Source: Rubritalea profundi (GTDB taxonomy: Bacteria; Verrucomicrobiota; Verrucomicrobiia; Verrucomicrobiales; Akkermansiaceae). From it: a stretch of DNA of 64,000 nt. Shown piece after piece: positions 1,789 to 12,387 of this stretch. Both the position numbers and the translations under genes were made by a program. Location: assembly GCF_002954445.1 (NCBI RefSeq), contig NZ_MQWA01000001.1, positions 2,506,248-2,570,247 on the forward strand, given 5' to 3'. The notes under the pieces are model-generated. The model had not been told where the DNA came from, did not search any database, and worked only from the letters and a program-made list of their open reading frames with translations. Each line of letters opens with the position of its first letter. Position 1 is the stretch's first letter.

Positions 1789-3261
1789 ATGGCACATAAC
1801 GTCACATCACAGGACCTACCAGAGAATGGCGAAAAGATCGCTAAGAAAGACCTCAGTCTTCCTAAGCTCATCGCATTTGGTTTGTTTGTAGCTGGAGCAA
1901 TCGCCAGTTATTTCTTATTCAATGATCAAACATTCGGATCTGGCTACGCCTACTCTTGGTTATTCGCATTCCTTTTCTTTCTCACCCTCGCTTTAGGTGG
2001 AGTCTTCTGGACCACGCTGCACCACCTTACTAACTCAGGTTGGGGCGTCAGCGTGCGTCGCATCATGGAGAACCTAGGATTTATCTTCCCATTCATGGCA
2101 GTGATTGCCGTTCCTCTGATGATCCCATCCGTTCAGGACGATCTTTACGAGTGGATGAACCGCCACCGCGAAGTACAGCAGACGGTGGAAGCTGATCCTG
2201 TAACTTATAGTGATGGCACAACTGGTTATGAGGCAAAATACTCTAACCAAGACACAGTAAAGGCACATGAGCCCGGTGGCGGCTACAAGTCTCCAACAAA
2301 AGCGCAACTTTATGCGACTCATGACGCTCACGACCACCTTCTAAAAGCGAAGCACTGGTACATGACTCTCGATGGGTGGCTCATCCGCATCGTTTGTTTC
2401 TTCGTTTTCCTGAGTGCTGGAATCTTTCTACTGCGTAAAATCTCTATCGACCAGGACACCGATCCTAATCCGACCACTCGCCGCCTGATTCTTGCGCGTA
2501 AGGTTTCTTGCGCAGTGATGCCTATATTTGCAGTTGCTGCCACATTCCTAGCATTAGACTTCTTGATGGCACTCGACTACAAGTGGTTTTCCACGATGTA
2601 CGGAGTTTGGTTCTTTGCCGGTTGTGCGCTCAACTCTATGGCCGTGCTTATTCTGGCGCTCTCATGGCTTCGTTATAAAGGGTACCTTCAGACAGTCACT
2701 TCTGAGGAACACTACCACGTCATGGGCAAGCTAATGCATGCCTTCGTTATCTTCTGGGCCTACGTTTCATTCTCCCAGTTCATGTTGATCTGGTACGCAA
2801 ACATCACCGAGGAGACATCCTACTTCCTCCTGCGTAACTCATCTGACTTTGTGACATTAGCTGATGGTAGTGTGACTGGATCTGTAAACTGGAACGTTTG
2901 GAGCACGCTGCTTGTATTTCTTCACTTTGCAGTGCCATTTGTGATTCTTCTTCCCCACTATATGAAGAAAAAGGTGAAGTTCGTGGTTCCAATCTGTCTC
3001 TACATTCTCGTCATGCACGTACTCGATCTCTACATCGCAGTGATTCCTGAGCGTGGACCATCACTTTCTGTGATGGATAAGCTAGGAGTTGACTGTGAGT
3101 TACTTCTTACCGTACAGCACAATGCCTACCTAGGTGATATCGTGGCCTTCATCACAGTGGGAGCGTTCTTCGTATTTGTCTTCCTTCGCAACCTAGGCAG
3201 CGCAAATACTTACCCGAACCGCGACCCGCGTATCCTCGAGTCAGCGAATCTCCATAACTAA
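1789..3261 (+). CDS. actF: ACIII subunit ActF (NrfD-like quinol-binding membrane protein)
   Basis: A 490-residue polytopic protein with about ten hydrophobic helices, related to ActC/NrfD. Visible family features include GGVFWTTLHHLTN in the second or third helix, a soluble loop with many His and Asp between helices 4 and 5, FLALDFLMALDYKWFST, and the conserved YHVMGKLMHAFVIFWAYVSFSQFMLIWYANI region. ActF is the second large membrane subunit of alternative complex III and may contribute a proton path. It ends the act genes proper; a small gene and the cbb3-like trio follow in the same direction with short gaps. Confidence 0.92.
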   Translation: MAHNVTSQDLPENGEKIAKKDLSLPKLIAFGLFVAGAIASYFLFNDQTFGSGYAYSWLFAFLFFLTLALGGVFWTTLHHLTNSGWGVSVRRIMENLGFIFPFMAVIAVPLMIPSVQDDLYEWMNRHREVQQTVEADPVTYSDGTTGYEAKYSNQDTVKAHEPGGGYKSPTKAQLYATHDAHDHLLKAKHWYMTLDGWLIRIVCFFVFLSAGIFLLRKISIDQDTDPNPTTRRLILARKVSCAVMPIFAVAATFLALDFLMALDYKWFSTMYGVWFFAGCALNSMAVLILALSWLRYKGYLQTVTSEEHYHVMGKLMHAFVIFWAYVSFSQFMLIWYANITEETSYFLLRNSSDFVTLADGSVTGSVNWNVWSTLLVFLHFAVPFVILLPHYMKKKVKFVVPICLYILVMHVLDLYIAVIPERGPSLSVMDKLGVDCELLLTVQHNAYLGDIVAFITVGAFFVFVFLRNLGSANTYPNRDPRILESANLHN

Positions 3262-3322: not shown

Positions 3323-3655
3323 ATGGAACCAAATCTCAGAGATACTCCACTGCGCCGCTTCAATACTTTCTTTTGGGGGTTGGCACTCTTCCTTGTATTC
3401 GCTATCGCAGCAGTGCTTGTAAAAAATATCATAGCCACTGATGTAGTTGACGCAGAAATAGAGCAAGGCAAGGTGCGCACAGAGACATTCAACAGGATCA
3501 ATGCTGAGCAAATCGCTGAGCGCAATACATACAAAGACAACGGGGACGGTACAGTTCAGGTCAAGCCTGAGGACGTATTCGGTCTTGGTAAGCAAATGGG
3601 CCTGCTCGACGGCCCTGAGGCTTCTGATAAGAAGCATGGTAAGCAGTTTGACTAA
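3323..3655 (+). CDS. Small single-pass membrane protein in respiratory operon
   Basis: 110 residues, unrecognised. A short charged N-terminus containing RDTPLRRFN is followed by one membrane helix (about residues 16-36) and a hydrophilic, mostly charged remainder with no Cys, so it cannot bind heme c covalently. It sits 61 bases after actF and 39 bases before the CcoN-like gene, so it is almost certainly co-transcribed. The single-pass layout resembles small accessory subunits of oxidase or ACIII complexes. I infer it is a structural subunit or assembly factor; nothing in the sequence shows a catalytic role. Confidence 0.75.
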   Translation: MEPNLRDTPLRRFNTFFWGLALFLVFAIAAVLVKNIIATDVVDAEIEQGKVRTETFNRINAEQIAERNTYKDNGDGTVQVKPEDVFGLGKQMGLLDGPEASDKKHGKQFD

Positions 3656-3694: not shown

Positions 3695-5173
3695 ATGGCA
3701 TCCGAAATTACCAGCCAACAAGTCGAAGACAATGTGCTGAGATCGCAAATTGACCGATCTCTCCGTCACCCAGTGATGTTCTTCTTCACCAGCGGCGCAG
3801 CATGGCTCGCGGTCTCACTTATTTTAGGTGTGATAGCATCCGCTAAGTCGCACTCACCAGGGTTCCTCGGTGAATGTTCATTCTTTAACTACGGACGCGT
3901 CTTCCAGGCGCACATGGCTACCTTCATTTACGGATGGGGAGCGCAAGCTGCCTTTGGTGTGATCATCTGGCTGATGGCTCGCCTTTCTCGTCAAGAGAGC
4001 AAGAAGTCTGGCATCATCCTTGCTATCGGCCACTTTTGGAACTTCGCGATTAGTCTTGGAACGCTCTGTATCTTGATGGGCCCGGGCTTCATCCTTGGTA
4101 GTGGTACTGGTAAAGCGTGGATGTACTTCCCCGATTGGGTTTGGCCAGTTCTTCTTGTATGTTACTTCGGTATCGGCATTTGGTCAGTGATCGCATTCCG
4201 CGTTCGCCGTGGTGGTCACGTGTACATTTCTCAATGGTACCTGATGGCTGCACTGTTCTGGTTCCCATGGGTATTCCTCACTGGAAACATCTTTATCAAC
4301 ACATTCGCAGACGCTGGTAACGGCGTGATGGCAGCAGGTATCAATGCCTGGTTCCGTTCTGCCATGCTCTTCCTCTTCTTCACACCAGTAGCCATCGCCA
4401 GCGCTTACTACATCACACCCAAGGTGACTGGCCGCCCGGTTTATTCCTACAAGCTGGCACTACTTGGATTCTGGTCACTCGCAGTCATCGGGCCATGGGC
4501 CGGCATGCAGAAAGTAATGGGAGCACCGATTCCGTCTTTCCTTCAGTTCGCTGGAGCAGGTGCAGCTGTCCTCTTCATCATTCCCGCACTTTGTGTCGCA
4601 GTGAACATTCTCAAGACCGCTACTGGTAAGACATCCGCAGTGGCTCACTCACCTTCACTTCGATTCACTATGGCGGGCATCATTGGCCTTATTGCTACTG
4701 CGGTAGTGGGTGGTTTGCTAGCTCTTCCTGGTGCGCTTCGGTACACCCAGTTCGCCTTCGGCGGTACTTACGGATACGAGATTCTAGCTCTCTACGGGTT
4801 TTTCTCCATGTCAATGTTCGGCGCGATCTACTTCATCGTTCCACGTGTGACTAACCGCGAGTGGATATCCGTTGGTCTTATCCGCCAGCACTTCTGGCTT
4901 TCGCTATATGGAGTGGTCTTCATTGGCCTGTTTTGCTGTATCCTTGGTGCGTTCATGCACGGATACGCACTAGAGACTTTCACCGTGCCGGCTGAGTCAG
5001 CACAGGATCGTCTTTACGCATACACAGTTGGAGTCACCACTGGTTGGGTGTTTGTCGCAGTTGCAAATGTCTTCTTCTGCCTTCACCTCCTGCTCATGTG
5101 GCTCCGCCTAGGTCGTCGCAGTAGTCACCCGACGCTGCTTCAGCACCATACGCCAACTATCCCAGTTGCTTAA
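3695..5173 (+). CDS. CcoN-like heme-copper oxidase subunit I lacking metal ligands
   Basis: 492 residues with about twelve membrane helices, clearly homologous to CcoN of cbb3 oxidases (YGRVFQAHM, SQWYLMAALFWFPW, TGRPVYSY, LYGFFSM, FGAIYFIVPR). The catalytic ligands are gone. By gapless motif alignment with Pseudomonas CcoN, the CuB histidines H207, H257 and H258 are S222, Q272 and K273; cross-link Tyr251 is G266; heme b3 ligand H347 is Y361; heme b ligand H349 is I363. Only the first heme b ligand (H73 here) remains. The reading frame is intact and the fold motifs are strongly kept, so this looks like a preserved non-catalytic paralogue, not a decaying gene. It is followed by CcoO-like and CcoP-like genes and lies between ACIII and an A-type oxidase. 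The role is inferred to be structural. Confidence 0.9.
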   Translation: MASEITSQQVEDNVLRSQIDRSLRHPVMFFFTSGAAWLAVSLILGVIASAKSHSPGFLGECSFFNYGRVFQAHMATFIYGWGAQAAFGVIIWLMARLSRQESKKSGIILAIGHFWNFAISLGTLCILMGPGFILGSGTGKAWMYFPDWVWPVLLVCYFGIGIWSVIAFRVRRGGHVYISQWYLMAALFWFPWVFLTGNIFINTFADAGNGVMAAGINAWFRSAMLFLFFTPVAIASAYYITPKVTGRPVYSYKLALLGFWSLAVIGPWAGMQKVMGAPIPSFLQFAGAGAAVLFIIPALCVAVNILKTATGKTSAVAHSPSLRFTMAGIIGLIATAVVGGLLALPGALRYTQFAFGGTYGYEILALYGFFSMSMFGAIYFIVPRVTNREWISVGLIRQHFWLSLYGVVFIGLFCCILGAFMHGYALETFTVPAESAQDRLYAYTVGVTTGWVFVAVANVFFCLHLLLMWLRLGRRSSHPTLLQHHTPTIPVA

Positions 5174-5213: not shown

Positions 5214-5972
5214 ATGACTGTTAAAACATTCTTCATAGGCCTGATTGCAAGTTTTGCACTTCCGTGGCTTGCAGTTGTAGCTGTACCCTACGCCACAATG
5301 CGCGCTGTAGAGATCCCTCAGTTCGATCTTAGTAAAGATGGCAAAGAGGGAGCATACACACCAGTGAAGTCTGGGCATGTTACTTTCGGCTCGACCATCT
5401 ACGGTGCTGAAGGTTGTGCCCAGTGCCATAGCCAGCTTGCTCGTCCTACCTACGCTGGTAATGACTTAGGTCGCCCAGATCTCGCTGGTATCGCTAAAGA
5501 TCCTGACATCGGTGACACCCGCCGTGAGTCCAATCTTTGGGACTACGCTGGTGAGCCCTTCGCCTGGATCGGTGAAACCCGCATGGGCCCTGACCTAGGC
5601 AACTTTGGTCGCCGCATGGAGATACTCGCTCTTAAGGAAAATAAAGTGCGTGCAGAAGAGCTCGGCATCAAAGTGGTTGATCTTCCGCAAGCTGAAAAAT
5701 TTAATATTGTGACATCAGTCAATCTTCACCTTTACGACCCACGTATTGGGAACTATAGTTCCATCTGCCAATCCAACAAGAGCCTCTTCGAGACGAAGAA
5801 AGTATACGGTCAAGGAGCAGTGAATGCCTTACCCATTGAATCAAATGATGGCCAACAGATTATCCCAGGCGAGAAAGTCCTCACGCTCACTTCTTACCTT
5901 CTCGGACTCAAGCGTGACGGTGAAGTGCCAAGCTCGATCAACTACTCCCGTAACAAGAAGTCTTCCAAGTAA
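5214..5972 (+). CDS. CcoO-like membrane cytochrome c
   Basis: 252 residues: an N-terminal membrane anchor (about residues 5-27), then a cytochrome c domain with the CcoO-type site GCAQCHSQLARP (Cys68, Cys71, His72). The later CcoO motif that normally supplies the distal Met (PR...S.MP) reads PRIGNYSSICQ, placing Cys185 where Met is expected, so heme ligation is probably altered or the heme is five-coordinate. The protein is similar in length to or slightly longer than usual CcoO. It is 40 bases downstream of the ligand-less CcoN-like gene and likely pairs with it, passing electrons in the periplasm. Confidence 0.88.
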   Translation: MTVKTFFIGLIASFALPWLAVVAVPYATMRAVEIPQFDLSKDGKEGAYTPVKSGHVTFGSTIYGAEGCAQCHSQLARPTYAGNDLGRPDLAGIAKDPDIGDTRRESNLWDYAGEPFAWIGETRMGPDLGNFGRRMEILALKENKVRAEELGIKVVDLPQAEKFNIVTSVNLHLYDPRIGNYSSICQSNKSLFETKKVYGQGAVNALPIESNDGQQIIPGEKVLTLTSYLLGLKRDGEVPSSINYSRNKKSSK

Positions 5973-6046: not shown

Positions 6047-6823
6047 ATGTCATCTGACCAACAACCAGTAGATCCTCCAAAACCGGATCTCGAAGATTCC
6101 ACAAACGTTGCACAGGCCCACGAAGAAGTGAGCTGCACTGCAGCAGCGGCTTCCCGTGAACAACAACTTCGCGAGAATGGCCTCGAGCCAGTCTCCATTT
6201 GGCTAATGGTTGCCGGATTTATCGTCGCAATCGTCGGTGGTAGCGTTCTGTTTGCTTCCAATAACTTTTTCTCCTACGACGAGTTCACTAAACAAGACTA
6301 CGTCCGCGCTGAGTATGATGGGAATAAAATAACAATCCCGATGGCACTCGCTGGAGATACCTACATGAAGAAGGGTGCAGCTCTCTATAAGAACTGTGCT
6401 GCCTGTCACGGTGCTGACGGTGCTGGTGTGGCGGGTGCTTTCCCTACGCTTGCTGGTTCTGAGTGGGTCACTGGCTCCGGTGCAGTTCCTGCGCTTGCGA
6501 TCATTCACGGTGTTAAAGGCAAGATTGAAGTGTCTGGTAATACTTACAATGGTGTAATGCCTGCGATGGCAGACGGTTGGAGTGACTTCGATATTGCCGC
6601 GCTTGTCTACTATGTTCAGAACAGCTTTGGCAACACAGTTGGTGAGATCTACTCAACGGAACAAATCACAGAAATTCGCGCTATCAGCAAAGAACACGGC
6701 AAGAATGCAATGACTGCCGATGACCTTAAAAAGCACCTCGACAAGAAGTTCGTAGCTGCAGCGCTTACCCCTGAAACAATGCTCAACTTAAAGACTGGAG
6801 AAGTCGTTGACGCATCCGAGTAA
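6047..6823 (+). CDS. Membrane-anchored monoheme cytochrome c (CcoP-like)
   Basis: 258 residues: a cytoplasmic N-terminus with Pro and acidic residues, one membrane helix (about residues 50-70), then a periplasmic class I cytochrome c domain with CAACH (117-121) and a candidate distal Met in GVMPAM. True CcoP is normally diheme; this protein has only one CxxCH. The ~35 residues at the C-terminus are charged and look helical. It completes a CcoN/CcoO/CcoP-like trio and lies 38 bases before coxA, so it may hand electrons to the CuA site of the downstream oxidase. That hand-off is inference. Confidence 0.88.
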   Translation: MSSDQQPVDPPKPDLEDSTNVAQAHEEVSCTAAAASREQQLRENGLEPVSIWLMVAGFIVAIVGGSVLFASNNFFSYDEFTKQDYVRAEYDGNKITIPMALAGDTYMKKGAALYKNCAACHGADGAGVAGAFPTLAGSEWVTGSGAVPALAIIHGVKGKIEVSGNTYNGVMPAMADGWSDFDIAALVYYVQNSFGNTVGEIYSTEQITEIRAISKEHGKNAMTADDLKKHLDKKFVAAALTPETMLNLKTGEVVDASE

Positions 6824-6861: not shown

Positions 6862-8706
6862 ATGAGTGACCACGACGACCATCACAACCCGAGTTTCTTA
6901 CAGAAATACGTCTTTTCTACTGATCATAAAATGATCGGTATTCAATATGGAATAACTGCCTTGTTCTTCCTCCTATTTGGATTTTTTCTGATGATGGTAA
7001 TGCGTTGGAGCATTGCCTATCCTAACGAACCCCTCCCAGAGTGGCTCAGCTGGGTCTTCACTGATACATGGAAGGGCCGCTGGCTCACCGACGGTAAAGT
7101 GACAGGAGAGACCTACAACATGTTTGGTGCCATGCACGGGACAATCATGGTTTTCCTTGGAGTGGTGCCACTCGGCTTCGGTGCCTTTGGTAACTACGTG
7201 ACTCCGCTGCAAATCGGCGCTCCAGACATGGCATTTCCTAAGCTCAATATGATGTCGTATTGGACCTACCTAGTTGGTGGTTTGCTGATGTGTGGCTCAT
7301 TTTTCCTTGAGTCTGGTTCCGCTAAATCTGGTTGGACAAACTACCCACCATTGGCGGCGATTGCTGACTCCCAGCATCCCAACCAGTTCTTCACTGGTCA
7401 GACCCAGTGGCTCATAGGTCTAGTTTTCCTGATTTCCTCATCACTGCTAGGATCGGTCAACTTCATCACCACCATCATCAACCTGCGAGCCAAGGGCATG
7501 ACCTGGATGCGTATGCCATTCTTTGTGTGGGCGATGCTTGTGACTGCTTTCCTTCTTCTTCTCGCATTCCCACCACTCGAAGTGGCAGGTATTATGCAGT
7601 TGGTTGATCGATTCTTCGGTTCTTCCTTCTTCCTCCCATCAGGTCTCTACACATCTGACACAGGTGTCATTGAGCATGCTGGTGGTGGTTCACCGCTTCT
7701 GTTCCAGCACTTGTTCTGGTTCCTCGGTCACCCGGAAGTGTACGTTCTTCTTCTACCATCTATCGCCTGTGTCGCGGAGATTATCCCAGCAAACACACGT
7801 AAGCCACTTTGGGGTTACAAGTCCATGGTCTACGCAGTGTTGGTGCTCGGTTTCCTTTCCTTCATCGTATGGGCACATCACATGTACATCACAGGTATGG
7901 GGTCTGGCGTTTCTACCTTCTTCCAGATCACCACAGTGCTGATTTCAGTACCATCAGTGGTGTTGATCACCTCCATGTTGATCTCGCTCTGGGGTGGTTC
8001 TATCCGCTTCACGATGCCAATGATCTGGGCATGTGCTTTCCTTCCGATGTTCGGTATTGGTGGACTCACCGGTCTACCACTGGCCTTCAACCTCGTAGGT
8101 CTCCACCTTCACGATACCTACTACGTGATTGGTCACTTCCACTATGTGGTTGCTCCGGGTATTCTGTTCGGTCTATTCGCCGGTATCTACTACTGGTATC
8201 CCAAGATGTTCGGTCGCCACATGAACACGGTGCTTGGTCACCTTCACTTCTGGCCATCATTGGTAGCGATTAACTTCGTGTTCTTTCCAATGCTGATGCA
8301 GGGAATGGCTGGTTTCCACCGCCGTTGGTACAATGGTGGTGACGCCTACGTGGTTGACGCTGACTCGGCTAACGTTTTCGGCCAGACCGTCCGTAGTTTC
8401 ATCGAACTCAACCAGGTGATGTCCGTAGCAGTATTCGTACTCGCGGCGGCTCAGCTCCCATTCATCATCAACCTCTTCACTGCCTGGTTTGCTGGTAAGA
8501 AAGTGGCTAACGATAACCCATGGGATGCAACGACTCTCGAGTGGGCCACTCCAACGCCTCCGGGCCATGGTAACTTCACTTTCGACATTGCTGTCTACCG
8601 CGGACCCTACGAGTACTCTCGTCCAGACCGCGATACAGACTACTACCCACAGTGGGAAGAGCCAACTAAGAAGGCCGATAAAGCTCAACCCGAGTCCGCT
8701 GAGTAA
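6862..8706 (+). CDS. coxA: Cytochrome c oxidase subunit I (A-family heme-copper oxidase)
   Basis: 614 residues with about twelve helices and all catalytic features. AMHGT carries a low-spin heme ligand. GHPEVY carries the CuB His, the proton-loading Glu and the cross-linked Tyr. HHMYITGM carries two more CuB His. HDTYYVIGHFHYV carries the heme a3 and heme a ligands. The Glu in GHPEVY marks the A1 type. This is therefore the real oxygen-reducing subunit of the operon, unlike the CcoN-like protein upstream. The N-terminus is His/Asp rich and the C-terminus ends in an acidic tail. The gap to the CcoP-like gene is 38 bases and coxC follows after 52 bases. Confidence 0.96.
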   Translation: MSDHDDHHNPSFLQKYVFSTDHKMIGIQYGITALFFLLFGFFLMMVMRWSIAYPNEPLPEWLSWVFTDTWKGRWLTDGKVTGETYNMFGAMHGTIMVFLGVVPLGFGAFGNYVTPLQIGAPDMAFPKLNMMSYWTYLVGGLLMCGSFFLESGSAKSGWTNYPPLAAIADSQHPNQFFTGQTQWLIGLVFLISSSLLGSVNFITTIINLRAKGMTWMRMPFFVWAMLVTAFLLLLAFPPLEVAGIMQLVDRFFGSSFFLPSGLYTSDTGVIEHAGGGSPLLFQHLFWFLGHPEVYVLLLPSIACVAEIIPANTRKPLWGYKSMVYAVLVLGFLSFIVWAHHMYITGMGSGVSTFFQITTVLISVPSVVLITSMLISLWGGSIRFTMPMIWACAFLPMFGIGGLTGLPLAFNLVGLHLHDTYYVIGHFHYVVAPGILFGLFAGIYYWYPKMFGRHMNTVLGHLHFWPSLVAINFVFFPMLMQGMAGFHRRWYNGGDAYVVDADSANVFGQTVRSFIELNQVMSVAVFVLAAAQLPFIINLFTAWFAGKKVANDNPWDATTLEWATPTPPGHGNFTFDIAVYRGPYEYSRPDRDTDYYPQWEEPTKKADKAQPESAE

Positions 8707-8758: not shown

Positions 8759-10654
8759 ATGGAAATTCCTTATATCGTCAATGCCCGCAAGGACACAGGA
8801 CTCAACAACTCAAAGATAGCTATCTGGCTGTTCCTCGCATCTGAGGTCATGCTCTTTGGTGGTCTATTCTCCTCGTACATCTTCCTCCGTGTGTTCGCAG
8901 ATTACCCTTGGCCTGAGCGCGCACTTCCAGTGCTGCCAGGTCTGATCAACACCTTCATCCTGATTGCATCCTCAGTCACAGTGGTATTTGCTTGGGCTGG
9001 CCTAAAGCTCCGCAAGTGGAACATGTTTAGAGCAAACATGGCATTCACCATTCTCTGTGCTGCAGTCTTCATGGTTCTTAAAGCCGATGAATATAATAAG
9101 AAACTTCACCACCACGCATCACAGACAGAAGATTACGCTTGGCTAGAAGGGCACCTCGATAAGGACCACCCTAACCAATACACAATCGAAGCTGACACAA
9201 TCAACTTCTCAGTCGAGAGCACGGCTTCTAACTACCTGGATGCCATCATTACTCAAAATGCTGATTATCCTCGTGCCTACTTTGTCGAAAAATTGTACGA
9301 GAAGATTAATTCTGGTGATCTTAGCGAGGTAGCTAAAAATTCCTATAAAGAGTATATTGAACTCTCTAAAGATGTATTACCAAAGAAGATCGATAAAGCT
9401 TCTAAAGTAGTGGTAGATTTACTTGAAGAAGCACACGCTCTTCCGACTATACCAACACTCGCTGAGCCGTACAAGATTCGTACTATCGAAGCTGGGAAGT
9501 TTACTGAAACTGTTCTTTATTCTGCTGGTACTGAGCTTTCTCCGGAAGTACTCGCTGTAGCCAACGATGAATTCATCAGGGCACGCACACACAACCAAGA
9601 ACTTCGCACCCAACTCCTCAAGGATGCTTGGAATGAAATTCGCGACGTAGACAAGCACCCAGAGCTAGCAGATATCGCAGATTTAGAATCTAAGGTCAAA
9701 TCTGCTGTGACGAAGGCGCACAATGCTCTTATCGACAAAGCGGAAGAGAACAATGAGTTTCTGATAGCTAACGGTAACATGATGTTCAACTCCAAAGGTG
9801 CTGAGTTTAGTTTAAACACAGGCTGGGGACGTATCTCTGACTCCACAATTGGCGCGAAGTACTCCAACGTTTCTCTTCTCGACGGCACCGTGCTCAGCGG
9901 AACAGCGGGTGATTCTAGCATTGTCTACCACTACGTTGACGGCATTGATTTCCGGCACCTTGTGCTGAAGGCTGAGGCAAAAGGCCTCAATGCTGAAGAG
10001 CTTATCGAGAGGTCACCTATTCTCAACATTCACGATCACGGTGGCCACCACGGCGGCGCTGATATTCGTGAAATATGGGAAGCTCACAAAGTTTGGCGCG
10101 GATTCCTTGCAGCAGACCTGCTAACTCAGGATGACTGGCTCACTGGAGAAGGACGCGTTCCTACAGAAGTTGACCTTTACCGCGTCACTTGGCACCAAAT
10201 GGTAGCCTATGATAAGTTAAAGAAGGAAATGGTTGTAGCAAAAAAGATTTCAGCAAACGCCCCGTTGAAAGATGCAATTACTGCTGAGAACTGGATGCGA
10301 ATTAATGGCGAGCTTAAGCCATCAATGCTCAATGACGTTAAGTCAAAACTTCCAGAGGAAATAATAGCAACCTTCCCACACCATGTGAGTATCGAACGCG
10401 ATGAAGTAAGGTTCGACTCAGTCTTCTCACCGAAGATGAACAACTACTACGCAATCTACTTCACCATCACTGGTCTTCACGGACTACACGTGATAGGCGG
10501 CGCGATTGTTCTCGGATACTATCTCTTCTTCGGACGCAAGATGTACCTCTCAAACCCTGAGTGGCTTGCTAACCGAGTAGAAGTTGGTGGCCTATTCTGG
10601 CACTTTGTGGACTTGGTCTGGATCCTTGTGTTCCCGCTCTTCTACCTCATGTAA
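8759..10654 (+). CDS. coxC: Cytochrome c oxidase subunit III with giant internal insert
   Basis: 631 residues, roughly three times a normal five-helix COX3. Residues 1-110 hold three membrane helices with typical motifs (IAIWLFLASEVMLFGGLFSSY). The last ~70 residues hold the final two helices (ITGLHGLHVIGG and VEVGGLFWHFVDLVWI). Between them, about residues 115-560 form a hydrophilic, Lys/Glu/Ala-rich, largely helical insert with an HDHGGHHGG stretch near residue 425. The frame is open throughout and the two COX3 halves align as one subunit, so the insert is in a loop between helices 3 and 4 and should project from one membrane face. COX3 stabilises the oxidase; the insert's role is unknown. 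Confidence 0.9.
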   Translation: MEIPYIVNARKDTGLNNSKIAIWLFLASEVMLFGGLFSSYIFLRVFADYPWPERALPVLPGLINTFILIASSVTVVFAWAGLKLRKWNMFRANMAFTILCAAVFMVLKADEYNKKLHHHASQTEDYAWLEGHLDKDHPNQYTIEADTINFSVESTASNYLDAIITQNADYPRAYFVEKLYEKINSGDLSEVAKNSYKEYIELSKDVLPKKIDKASKVVVDLLEEAHALPTIPTLAEPYKIRTIEAGKFTETVLYSAGTELSPEVLAVANDEFIRARTHNQELRTQLLKDAWNEIRDVDKHPELADIADLESKVKSAVTKAHNALIDKAEENNEFLIANGNMMFNSKGAEFSLNTGWGRISDSTIGAKYSNVSLLDGTVLSGTAGDSSIVYHYVDGIDFRHLVLKAEAKGLNAEELIERSPILNIHDHGGHHGGADIREIWEAHKVWRGFLAADLLTQDDWLTGEGRVPTEVDLYRVTWHQMVAYDKLKKEMVVAKKISANAPLKDAITAENWMRINGELKPSMLNDVKSKLPEEIIATFPHHVSIERDEVRFDSVFSPKMNNYYAIYFTITGLHGLHVIGGAIVLGYYLFFGRKMYLSNPEWLANRVEVGGLFWHFVDLVWILVFPLFYLM

Positions 10655-10691: not shown

Positions 10692-11042
10692 ATGGCAAAT
10701 TCTCCAGAAGAAATTAAGTCACACTTCAAGCAATACTCTATCGTAGGTGCTGGGCTCTTTGCTGGTACAGTCGCTACAGTGCTTGTGGCCACGGTTCCTG
10801 CACTAGATATTGGCGGACACGGATTCGACTCCGCTGACATGATATTAGGATTTGCGATTGCCGCGACTAAGATGTTCTTTGTGGCATTCATCTTCATGCA
10901 CCTTAACCATGAGAAAAAGCTTATTTATTGGGTATTCCTTGGCGCTCTGGTATTTGCTGCAATACTTATTGGTCTCTTCGCACTCGCGATGTACGACCCG
11001 ATCACTTTCAAGACACTCCTACCGGCAAAGCCCGGCCAATAA
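10692..11042 (+). CDS. coxD: Cytochrome c oxidase subunit IV (prokaryotic COX4-like)
   Basis: 116 residues with three predicted membrane helices. The family pattern is visible in the second helix: ATKMFFVAFIFMHLNHEKK, where the MHL and nearby charges are typical of prokaryotic subunit IV proteins (CyoD/CtaF-like). The subunit has no cofactor and stabilises the CuB site and assembly of the complex. It lies 37 bases after coxC in the oxidase operon and is followed by two mini membrane proteins. Confidence 0.88.
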   Translation: MANSPEEIKSHFKQYSIVGAGLFAGTVATVLVATVPALDIGGHGFDSADMILGFAIAATKMFFVAFIFMHLNHEKKLIYWVFLGALVFAAILIGLFALAMYDPITFKTLLPAKPGQ

Positions 11043-11481: not shown

Positions 11482-11508
11482 TCATTTAACCAATTGCTAA
11501 AGCACATT

Positions 11509-12387
11509 ATGTTCAGCAACCACACACTATCCTCATTTTTCTCTCCATCCGAATGGCTCGGACTGCCTGCCAACTATTCACTTCACGGTGACCAAGTCGA
11601 TCACACGATCGATGTTGTTCATTGGTTGATGATTGTTCTTTTCGTCGGTTGGACTATTTTCTTCTTTGTCTGTCTTTTCAAATTCGGTCAGAAGAAAAAT
11701 GCTAAGGCTTCCTACCTCGGTGTGAAGAACCACGTTTCTACTCACCTAGAAATTGGTGTGATCATCATCGAGGCAGTTCTCCTCCTCGGCTTCGCACTCC
11801 CACTATGGGGCGAGCGCACAGACTCCTTTGACCGTGTTATCCAAGAAGAAAACGAAGTGCGTGTTCGAGCAATCGGGTACCAATTCGGGTGGAAATTCCA
11901 CTATGCTGGTAACGACGGGGTGTTTGGCTTCATCGACCGCGACCTTGTGAAGGGACCGGGCGACGCATGTATCTACCCAGATGATCCTAACGGCTTCGAT
12001 GACTTTGTGGCGTCAACGCTCAAGCTTCCAGTGCTCCGCCCAGCAATCGTGCAGGTGACTTCTACCGATGTGATCCATAACTTTGGTATTGTTCCAATGC
12101 GTGTGCAGCAGGATGCCTTCCCAGGTAAAGACATACCAATGTGGTTCACACCGCTCGAGGAACTAGAGACTTCAGTTGTCTGCGGTCAGCTCTGCGGTGA
12201 AGGACACGCTAACATGGTAGGAACTATGGTGATCGAATCTGAAAAAGTCTTCACTAAGTGGTCTGGCGATTTAAGCTCAGATGCCTACGAGTCAAACAAG
12301 GCTGCCTACGACGCTCGTCAAGTCGCCGCCGAAAAGGCTGAAGCTGAGCGCGCCTCTCACGCTGGTCAAAGCAGTCACGACCATTAA
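11509..12387 (+). CDS. coxB: Cytochrome c oxidase subunit II with CuA site
   Basis: The ATG at 11509 is preferred to a TTG 15 bases upstream. 292 residues: a short N-terminus, two membrane helices (about residues 30-60 and 80-105), then a periplasmic cupredoxin domain. The CuA ligands are all visible in CGQLCGEGHANM (Cys, Cys, His, Met), with the earlier His in VIHNFGI. The aromatic electron-entry region reads GYQFGWKFHY. There is no fused cytochrome c, so electrons must come from a separate cytochrome, perhaps the CcoO/CcoP-like proteins or ACIII itself. The tail is Ala/Glu-rich and ends in HDH. This is the last gene of the respiratory operon. Confidence 0.95.
   Translation: MFSNHTLSSFFSPSEWLGLPANYSLHGDQVDHTIDVVHWLMIVLFVGWTIFFFVCLFKFGQKKNAKASYLGVKNHVSTHLEIGVIIIEAVLLLGFALPLWGERTDSFDRVIQEENEVRVRAIGYQFGWKFHYAGNDGVFGFIDRDLVKGPGDACIYPDDPNGFDDFVASTLKLPVLRPAIVQVTSTDVIHNFGIVPMRVQQDAFPGKDIPMWFTPLEELETSVVCGQLCGEGHANMVGTMVIESEKVFTKWSGDLSSDAYESNKAAYDARQVAAEKAEAERASHAGQSSHDH

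Follow-up and report, generated by a model that had tools for sequence, protein, structure and literature searches.

A CcoN homologue is widely taken as a sign of a high-affinity, oxygen-reducing cbb3 oxidase. The window, which is the whole 64,000-nucleotide stretch of the Rubritalea profundi genome analysed here, encodes a CcoN-like protein whose active site is gone, raising the question of what such a membrane protein does between the genes of ACIII and those of an aa3 oxidase. The start of actC lies upstream of the window (full ORF in locus L121), as do actA with five CXXCH motifs and actB with a product of 1149 aa (both in L121); with a pentaheme ActA, ActB and ActD all present, the cluster is assigned to ACIII. 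The CcoN-like gene is located behind actF and before the ccoO/ccoP-like genes, and a complete aa3 oxidase gene set (coxA, coxC, coxD and coxB) comes directly after the ccoO/ccoP-like pair. The features are as follows:

1–466, + strand: 3′ part of actC, NrfD-like membrane subunit of ACIII (position and synteny)
506–1057, + strand: actD (Pfam ActD, 189.6 bits)
1083–1745, + strand: actE, monoheme cytochrome c of ACIII (Pfam cytochrome c and position; start inferred within the ORF 945–1745)
1789–3261, + strand: actF-like gene, second NrfD-like membrane subunit, 490 aa (position and class-wide synteny)
3323–3655, + strand: small single-helix protein between actF and the pseudo-oxidase
3695–5173, + strand: CcoN-like pseudo-oxidase without active site, 492 aa (family profiles, structure-chain alignment and predicted model)
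5214–5972, + strand: CcoO-like cytochrome c (CXXCH at 5415–5429; axial Met replaced by Cys185 at 5766–5768)
6047–6823, + strand: CcoP-like monoheme cytochrome c (CXXCH at 6395–6409; axial Met171 at 6557–6559)
6862–8706, + strand: coxA, A-type oxidase subunit I with the catalytic motifs present (COX1, 438.8 bits)
8759–10654, + strand: coxC, COX3 domain interrupted by an insert of ~430 aa (profile matches)
10692–11042, + strand: coxD-like small subunit (position and synteny)
11494–12387, + strand: coxB, subunit II with the CuA motif (CoxB/COX2 matches)

The Pfam search gave no hit for the actF-like product, and the small single-helix protein matched no family above threshold in Pfam or NCBIfam. 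The sequence scan of CoxB found no CXXCH and hence no heme c site. The insert of coxC has no confident family, and the homologues from the Methylacidiphilum family (270–291 aa) are without it.

The CcoN-like frame is uninterrupted over its whole length. Its product matches Pfam COX1 with 140 bits against a cut-off of 34.8, and its best named family is NCBIfam ccoN (TIGR00780), yet with 102 bits it stays far below the equivalog cut-off of 583, under which a ligand-complete ACIII-type CcoN also falls (235 bits in L067). The predicted model (pLDDT 93.7, pTM 0.93) superposes on chain 3mk7_D with a Z of 45.7 and 2.1 Å over 445 residues, placing the protein in the heme-copper oxidase superfamily by descent (COX1 family) and by its CcoN-type predicted fold. 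The original prediction of a CcoN fold within an intact 492-residue frame is thereby borne out. The ligand positions were mapped by phmmer against the solved CcoN chains 9g83, 9g6b and 3mk7, with 380–440 residues aligned and E-values down to 2.7e-23, and reference residues are numbered as in P. stutzeri CcoN. Placed by alignment (for H73, that with 3mk7) and column check, they are:

3911–3913, + strand: H73, corresponding to H60, a low-spin heme b His; the sole ligand position kept
4358–4360, + strand: S222, replacing the CuB His H207
4490–4492, + strand: G266, replacing the cross-linked Tyr Y251
4508–4513, + strand: Q272 and K273, replacing the CuB His H257 and H258
4775–4783, + strand: Y361 and I363, replacing the heme b3 His H345 and the low-spin heme b His H347

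All seven positions had been named correctly beforehand, as the alignments with the three chains confirmed. The three CuB His, the cross-linked Tyr and the heme b3 His of a catalytic cbb3 oxidase are thus absent, and so is the bis-His pair of the low-spin heme b, the partner of H73 being I363. The true CcoN of the same genome, a fused CcoNO of 829 aa (G000:C1:1080305, L002), reads HHYHHHH at those columns, which argues that the ligand loss is no alignment artefact; misalignment was rejected, as two predicted models and this fused CcoNO give the same picture as the three solved structures. Nor is the loss a matter of chance: the full ligand set was kept in none of the 53 homologues first aligned, a few of which retain one or two residues. 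The confident superposition taken together with the ligand alignment indicates a CcoN fold from which the active site has gone. Judged from its residues, loss of oxygen chemistry in this protein is nearly certain: neither CuB nor heme b3 can be bound any more, and a bis-His heme b is very probably absent as well.

The family is present, without internal stops, in 55 of the 58 sampled relatives, and a 56th match, in genome G039, is as weak as an ordinary CcoN. Orthologues with 37–84% identity were detected in almost every genome sampled from the order, the nearest named relative being Rubritalea marina (83–84%). The comparison with R. marina gave a dN of 0.105 and a dS of ~1.7, i.e., a dN/dS of ~0.06 at near-saturated dS, and that with the next relative a dN of 0.158 and a dS of 1.66; pairs of ligand-less copies with unsaturated dS agree (L097/L098, dN 0.038 and dS 0.25; L080/L081, dN 0.092 and dS 0.48). 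The CcoN-like protein is conserved at about the level of ActF and more strongly than CcoO and CcoP. A pseudogene or a sequencing artefact was rejected, the frames being whole in all relatives and dN/dS far below 1. The purifying selection that had been proposed as a check is therefore found, and the claim of a conserved, functional pseudo-oxidase is supported by the spread of orthologues, the low dN/dS, the CcoN fold and the strict residence behind actF.

The ACIII-linked CcoN family is class-wide, and the pseudo-oxidase is not peculiar to the window genome. A total of 241 genomes of the phylum were searched and 60 further loci inspected; the sampling is that of Verrucomicrobiota, the genome-contig scan having returned that phylum only and the genome search having centred on it. 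Among the fetched loci, 14 have all seven positions intact (HHYHHHH, hereafter active) and 77 do not (dead). Replacements at the ligand positions, proposed as a search target beside actF in other genomes, occur widely in the class and differ by lineage: an HSGQKYI-like set in the order of the window, HNSQRYH in a neighbouring family, where the low-spin heme b pair is all that is kept of the ligands, AHSSRRW and QQGRHQQ in the family of genome G154, SESSHFV in the Methylacidiphilum family, and AAGVNQQ in one genome nested among active ones. Two loci, L062 (7712–9172) and L063 (1273–2739), carry an ACIII-linked CcoN with the low-spin heme b His pair only, a natural intermediate. Homologues that retain the ligands, which the original prediction had taken as possible counter-evidence, do exist in other orders, but the window copy shows none of the relaxed selection that was to go with them. 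H73 was rightly called the sole remnant in the window protein, but it is not fixed. Although most of the order has it (83% of the family alignment), several of the order's families carry Phe instead, and Ser, Ala or Gln occurs elsewhere. This variation makes an electron-transfer role through heme b unlikely in general.

The order act–ccoN–ccoO–ccoP is identical in active and dead loci. The genes coxA-C-D-B lie directly downstream in the order of the window and in the Methylacidiphilum family and not in others, and a coxA within ~5 kb is missing from Opitutaceae and from some further dead lineages. An adjoining coxA was observed at 0 of 14 active and 28 of 77 dead loci, a contrast that is only partly informative, since many dead loci are too short to show coxA and descent is ignored. 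A PF00115 check revealed another heme-copper family member in all 24 dead-copy genomes examined; in two small genomes the active copy is the sole member. This distribution is consistent with the active ACIII-linked copies being real oxidases.

Loss in the dead copies reaches beyond the ligands. Of the columns that true CcoN has in common with the active ACIII type, dead copies lack the ligands, R70, E141, T230, S255, Y332, H352 and a few others, the six named residues matching heme-propionate, metal and K-channel positions (P. stutzeri numbering). The scaffold residues W37, W115, W219, K243, W260, G270, P383 and H399 are retained, and D20, G80, W92, N116, P146, P191-W192, P278 and W390 are common to active and dead copies and absent from ordinary CcoN. 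These ACIII-type-specific residues, present in both states, fit a retained interface, as would be expected of one. The CcoO-like partner retains its CXXCH and has lost its axial Met only at loci with a dead CcoN: all 14 active loci have the Met but only 33 of 75 dead ones do (Fisher p 5e-5, without correction for descent), and within the window's family the position is Cys at 32 of 32 loci, where His/Cys ligation would be expected to lower the potential of the heme. The CcoP-like partner keeps its CXXCH, and its Met wherever the column is covered. Such a pattern is what would be expected if CcoO had once passed electrons to the heme b of CcoN and now had no acceptor left, with the CcoP heme still in use. 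Both CcoO and CcoP evolve faster than CoxA.

A careful CcoN tree was built with the ligand columns masked, on which dead and ligand-retaining ACIII-linked CcoN form one clade (100/100 support) apart from the ordinary fused CcoNO. A single clade of dead copies was rejected (AU p = 0.007), in agreement with a larger quick tree; the active site was therefore lost at least twice. A careful tree built from the ActC, ActD, ActE and ActF sequences of these loci gave eight state changes, with seven to eight in bootstraps and at least six forced by well-supported branches. The two trees differ because loci with similar ActC have diverged in CcoN: dead L070 and active L067 are 92% identical in ActC and 61% in CcoN, and dead L039 and active L071 are 95% and 42% identical, respectively. 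By these pairwise comparisons CcoN diverges faster once its ligands are lost, which may pull dead copies together on the CcoN tree; alternatively, dead ccoN genes may have moved from one operon to another. Six to eight losses are likely, and from the ligand-complete outgroup the direction would be loss, not regain.

Taken together, the CcoN-like protein is probably a non-catalytic membrane scaffold, descended from a working, ACIII-tied cbb3 oxidase that was repeatedly retired, a role to which gene order and conservation point. The ancestor would have been a cbb3-type oxidase in Verrucomicrobiia, with ccoN, ccoO and ccoP directly behind ACIII. In the lineage of the window, the aa3 oxidase encoded next door would do the oxygen chemistry, and the CcoN remnant would tie the two cytochromes, CcoO-like and CcoP-like, to ACIII as their membrane anchor. 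Electrons may then pass from menaquinol through the iron-sulfur clusters of ACIII and the ActA hemes to ActE, and from there through the CcoP-like heme c to the CuA of CoxB and on to heme a/a3-CuB, with the CcoO heme, formerly the step into CcoN, now a side branch or dead end. Both the physical assembly with ACIII and aa3 and this order of transfer are inferred, the predicted model being that of a monomer. The heme c donors of the ACIII-(c)aa3 systems of Flavobacterium and Rhodothermus are a sixth ActA heme or a heme c on CoxB (PMC8552683, PMC5928083). The motif scan of the present locus found five hemes in ActA, with no sixth, mobile one, and no heme c in CoxB, so that both known direct routes out of ACIII would be unavailable and CcoP could fill the place. 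A direct partnership with aa3 would not be general, as lineages such as Opitutaceae, without a coxA nearby, indicate, and the retention of H73 in most of the order counts against a pure scaffold, which has no need of it. On a wider scale, there is about an even chance that a heme-copper oxidase became a non-catalytic structural and electron-wiring module of another respiratory complex many times within one bacterial class (seven to eight changes on the ACIII tree), in a recurring order with CuB and heme b3 going first, then the low-spin heme b and then the CcoO ligation, and the CcoP heme never.

H73 bears on an unlikely alternative, in which this residue and a substitute ligand would still hold a single heme b in the CcoN-like protein, and the protein would relay electrons between CcoO and another partner. 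Its retention in most of the order speaks for such a heme, and a heme-b-only state seems to exist in L062 and L063, two loci of a related family, where both low-spin heme b His are kept and the rest are lost. However, the partner of H73 is Ile, Leu, Val or Met in the window's family, H73 itself gives way to Phe in several of the order's families and is lost in Methylacidiphilaceae and most dead Opitutaceae, and the axial Met of CcoO is gone. The one nearly invariant His that remains, H399, also occurs in true CcoN and binds no heme there. Quite unlikely, too, is a function beyond that of a scaffold, in which the protein would be coupled to ACIII and conduct protons or ions or handle quinol in the membrane. 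Its gene at the ACIII locus specifies a large polytopic product, and the cofactor-free, NrfD-like membrane subunits of ACIII have been proposed to move protons (PMC5928083), but in the CcoN-like protein the K-channel positions are lost and no conserved series of buried charges was identified.

Loss of the K-channel positions also weighs against another reaction at a changed metal site, such as reduction of NO or another small molecule. The heme-copper superfamily does include a known class of members whose active sites are altered, but no conserved set of replacement metal ligands emerges from the residues that took over in the different lineages, which makes this explanation very improbable. 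The least probable of the four is a decaying leftover, held only by its position in an essential operon. The faster evolution of CcoO and CcoP relative to CoxA, and of CcoN after ligand loss, would suit decay, whereas the frames are open without stops in every relative, dN/dS is far below 1 and the scaffold residues are invariant over the whole class.

As a probable scaffold at the electron exit of ACIII, the protein resembles cbb3 CcoN (3mk7, 8smr and 9g6b) in predicted fold, scaffold motifs and the CcoO/CcoP gene order and differs from it in lacking the CuB, heme b3 and paired heme b ligands, the cross-linked Tyr and the K-channel positions; in addition, cbb3 CcoP usually has two heme sites, whereas the CcoP-like partner in the window has one. 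The ligand-intact ACIII-linked CcoN of the 14 active loci (e.g., L067 and L065) belongs to the same family by tree and synteny, but its seven positions are intact and no coxA cluster was found directly downstream. Flavobacterium johnsoniae and Rhodothermus marinus share with the window the succession of ACIII genes and an A-type oxidase, as known here from gene order, and direct electron transfer from ACIII to the oxidase has been proposed for their supercomplexes (PMC8552683, PMC5928083). Unlike them, the window has no extra heme c and carries a retired cbb3 module between ACIII and aa3.

A "cbb3-type oxidase" adjoining ACIII has been reported as functional in verrucomicrobial methanotrophs and Opitutaceae (PMC6688271, PMC8498564), and it is the same gene in the same place as the CcoN-like gene of the window. 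The genome paper on Methylacidiphilum kamchatkense Kam1 lists a cbb3 oxidase beside ACIII and links it to high oxygen affinity (PMC6688271), and later papers also list one there in Methylacidiphilum (PMC8498564, PMC11102522, PMC10205796, PMC8170126). In Kam1 (G207), the ACIII-linked CcoN reads SESSHFV while its model is still CcoN-like (Z 46.8 to 3mk7_D), and the rest of the heme-copper inventory consists of two A-type oxidases, a ba3-like oxidase and a nitric oxide reductase. With these residues the ACIII-linked copy cannot be a functional oxidase, and by sequence Kam1 thus has no working cbb3 oxidase. No earlier report of a ligand-less CcoN was found in the open-access literature, a scope outside which the ACIII survey of Refojo 2010 lies. 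Much of Verrucomicrobiia, Kam1 included, thus carries CcoN homologues unable to reduce oxygen, and a series from active to dead of one ACIII-attached oxidase makes the electron hand-over from ACIII testable across close relatives.

Several further loci were recorded in the survey. In L100 (G127) there is a break in the act genes that precede the dead CcoN, which fits the insertion of a nos cluster reported within the ACIII cluster of Methylacidiphilum caldifontis IT6 (PMC11102522). G154 and G074, besides a dead ACIII-linked copy, have another CcoN type that is ligand-complete and comes with a two-heme CcoO (L090, L092), and in another class of the phylum (L101–L107) a ligand-complete CcoN lies beside a seven-heme cytochrome (590–614 aa) and CcoO. 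A divergent heme-copper subunit-I-like protein adjoins a second coxAB-like pair in G130 (L140, 1446–2879), with a similar locus at G146:C1:4498533 (L141), and in G154 a 444-aa heme-copper-like protein (L142, 2447–3781) precedes a fusion of a membrane protein with heme c domains of CcoO/CcoP type.
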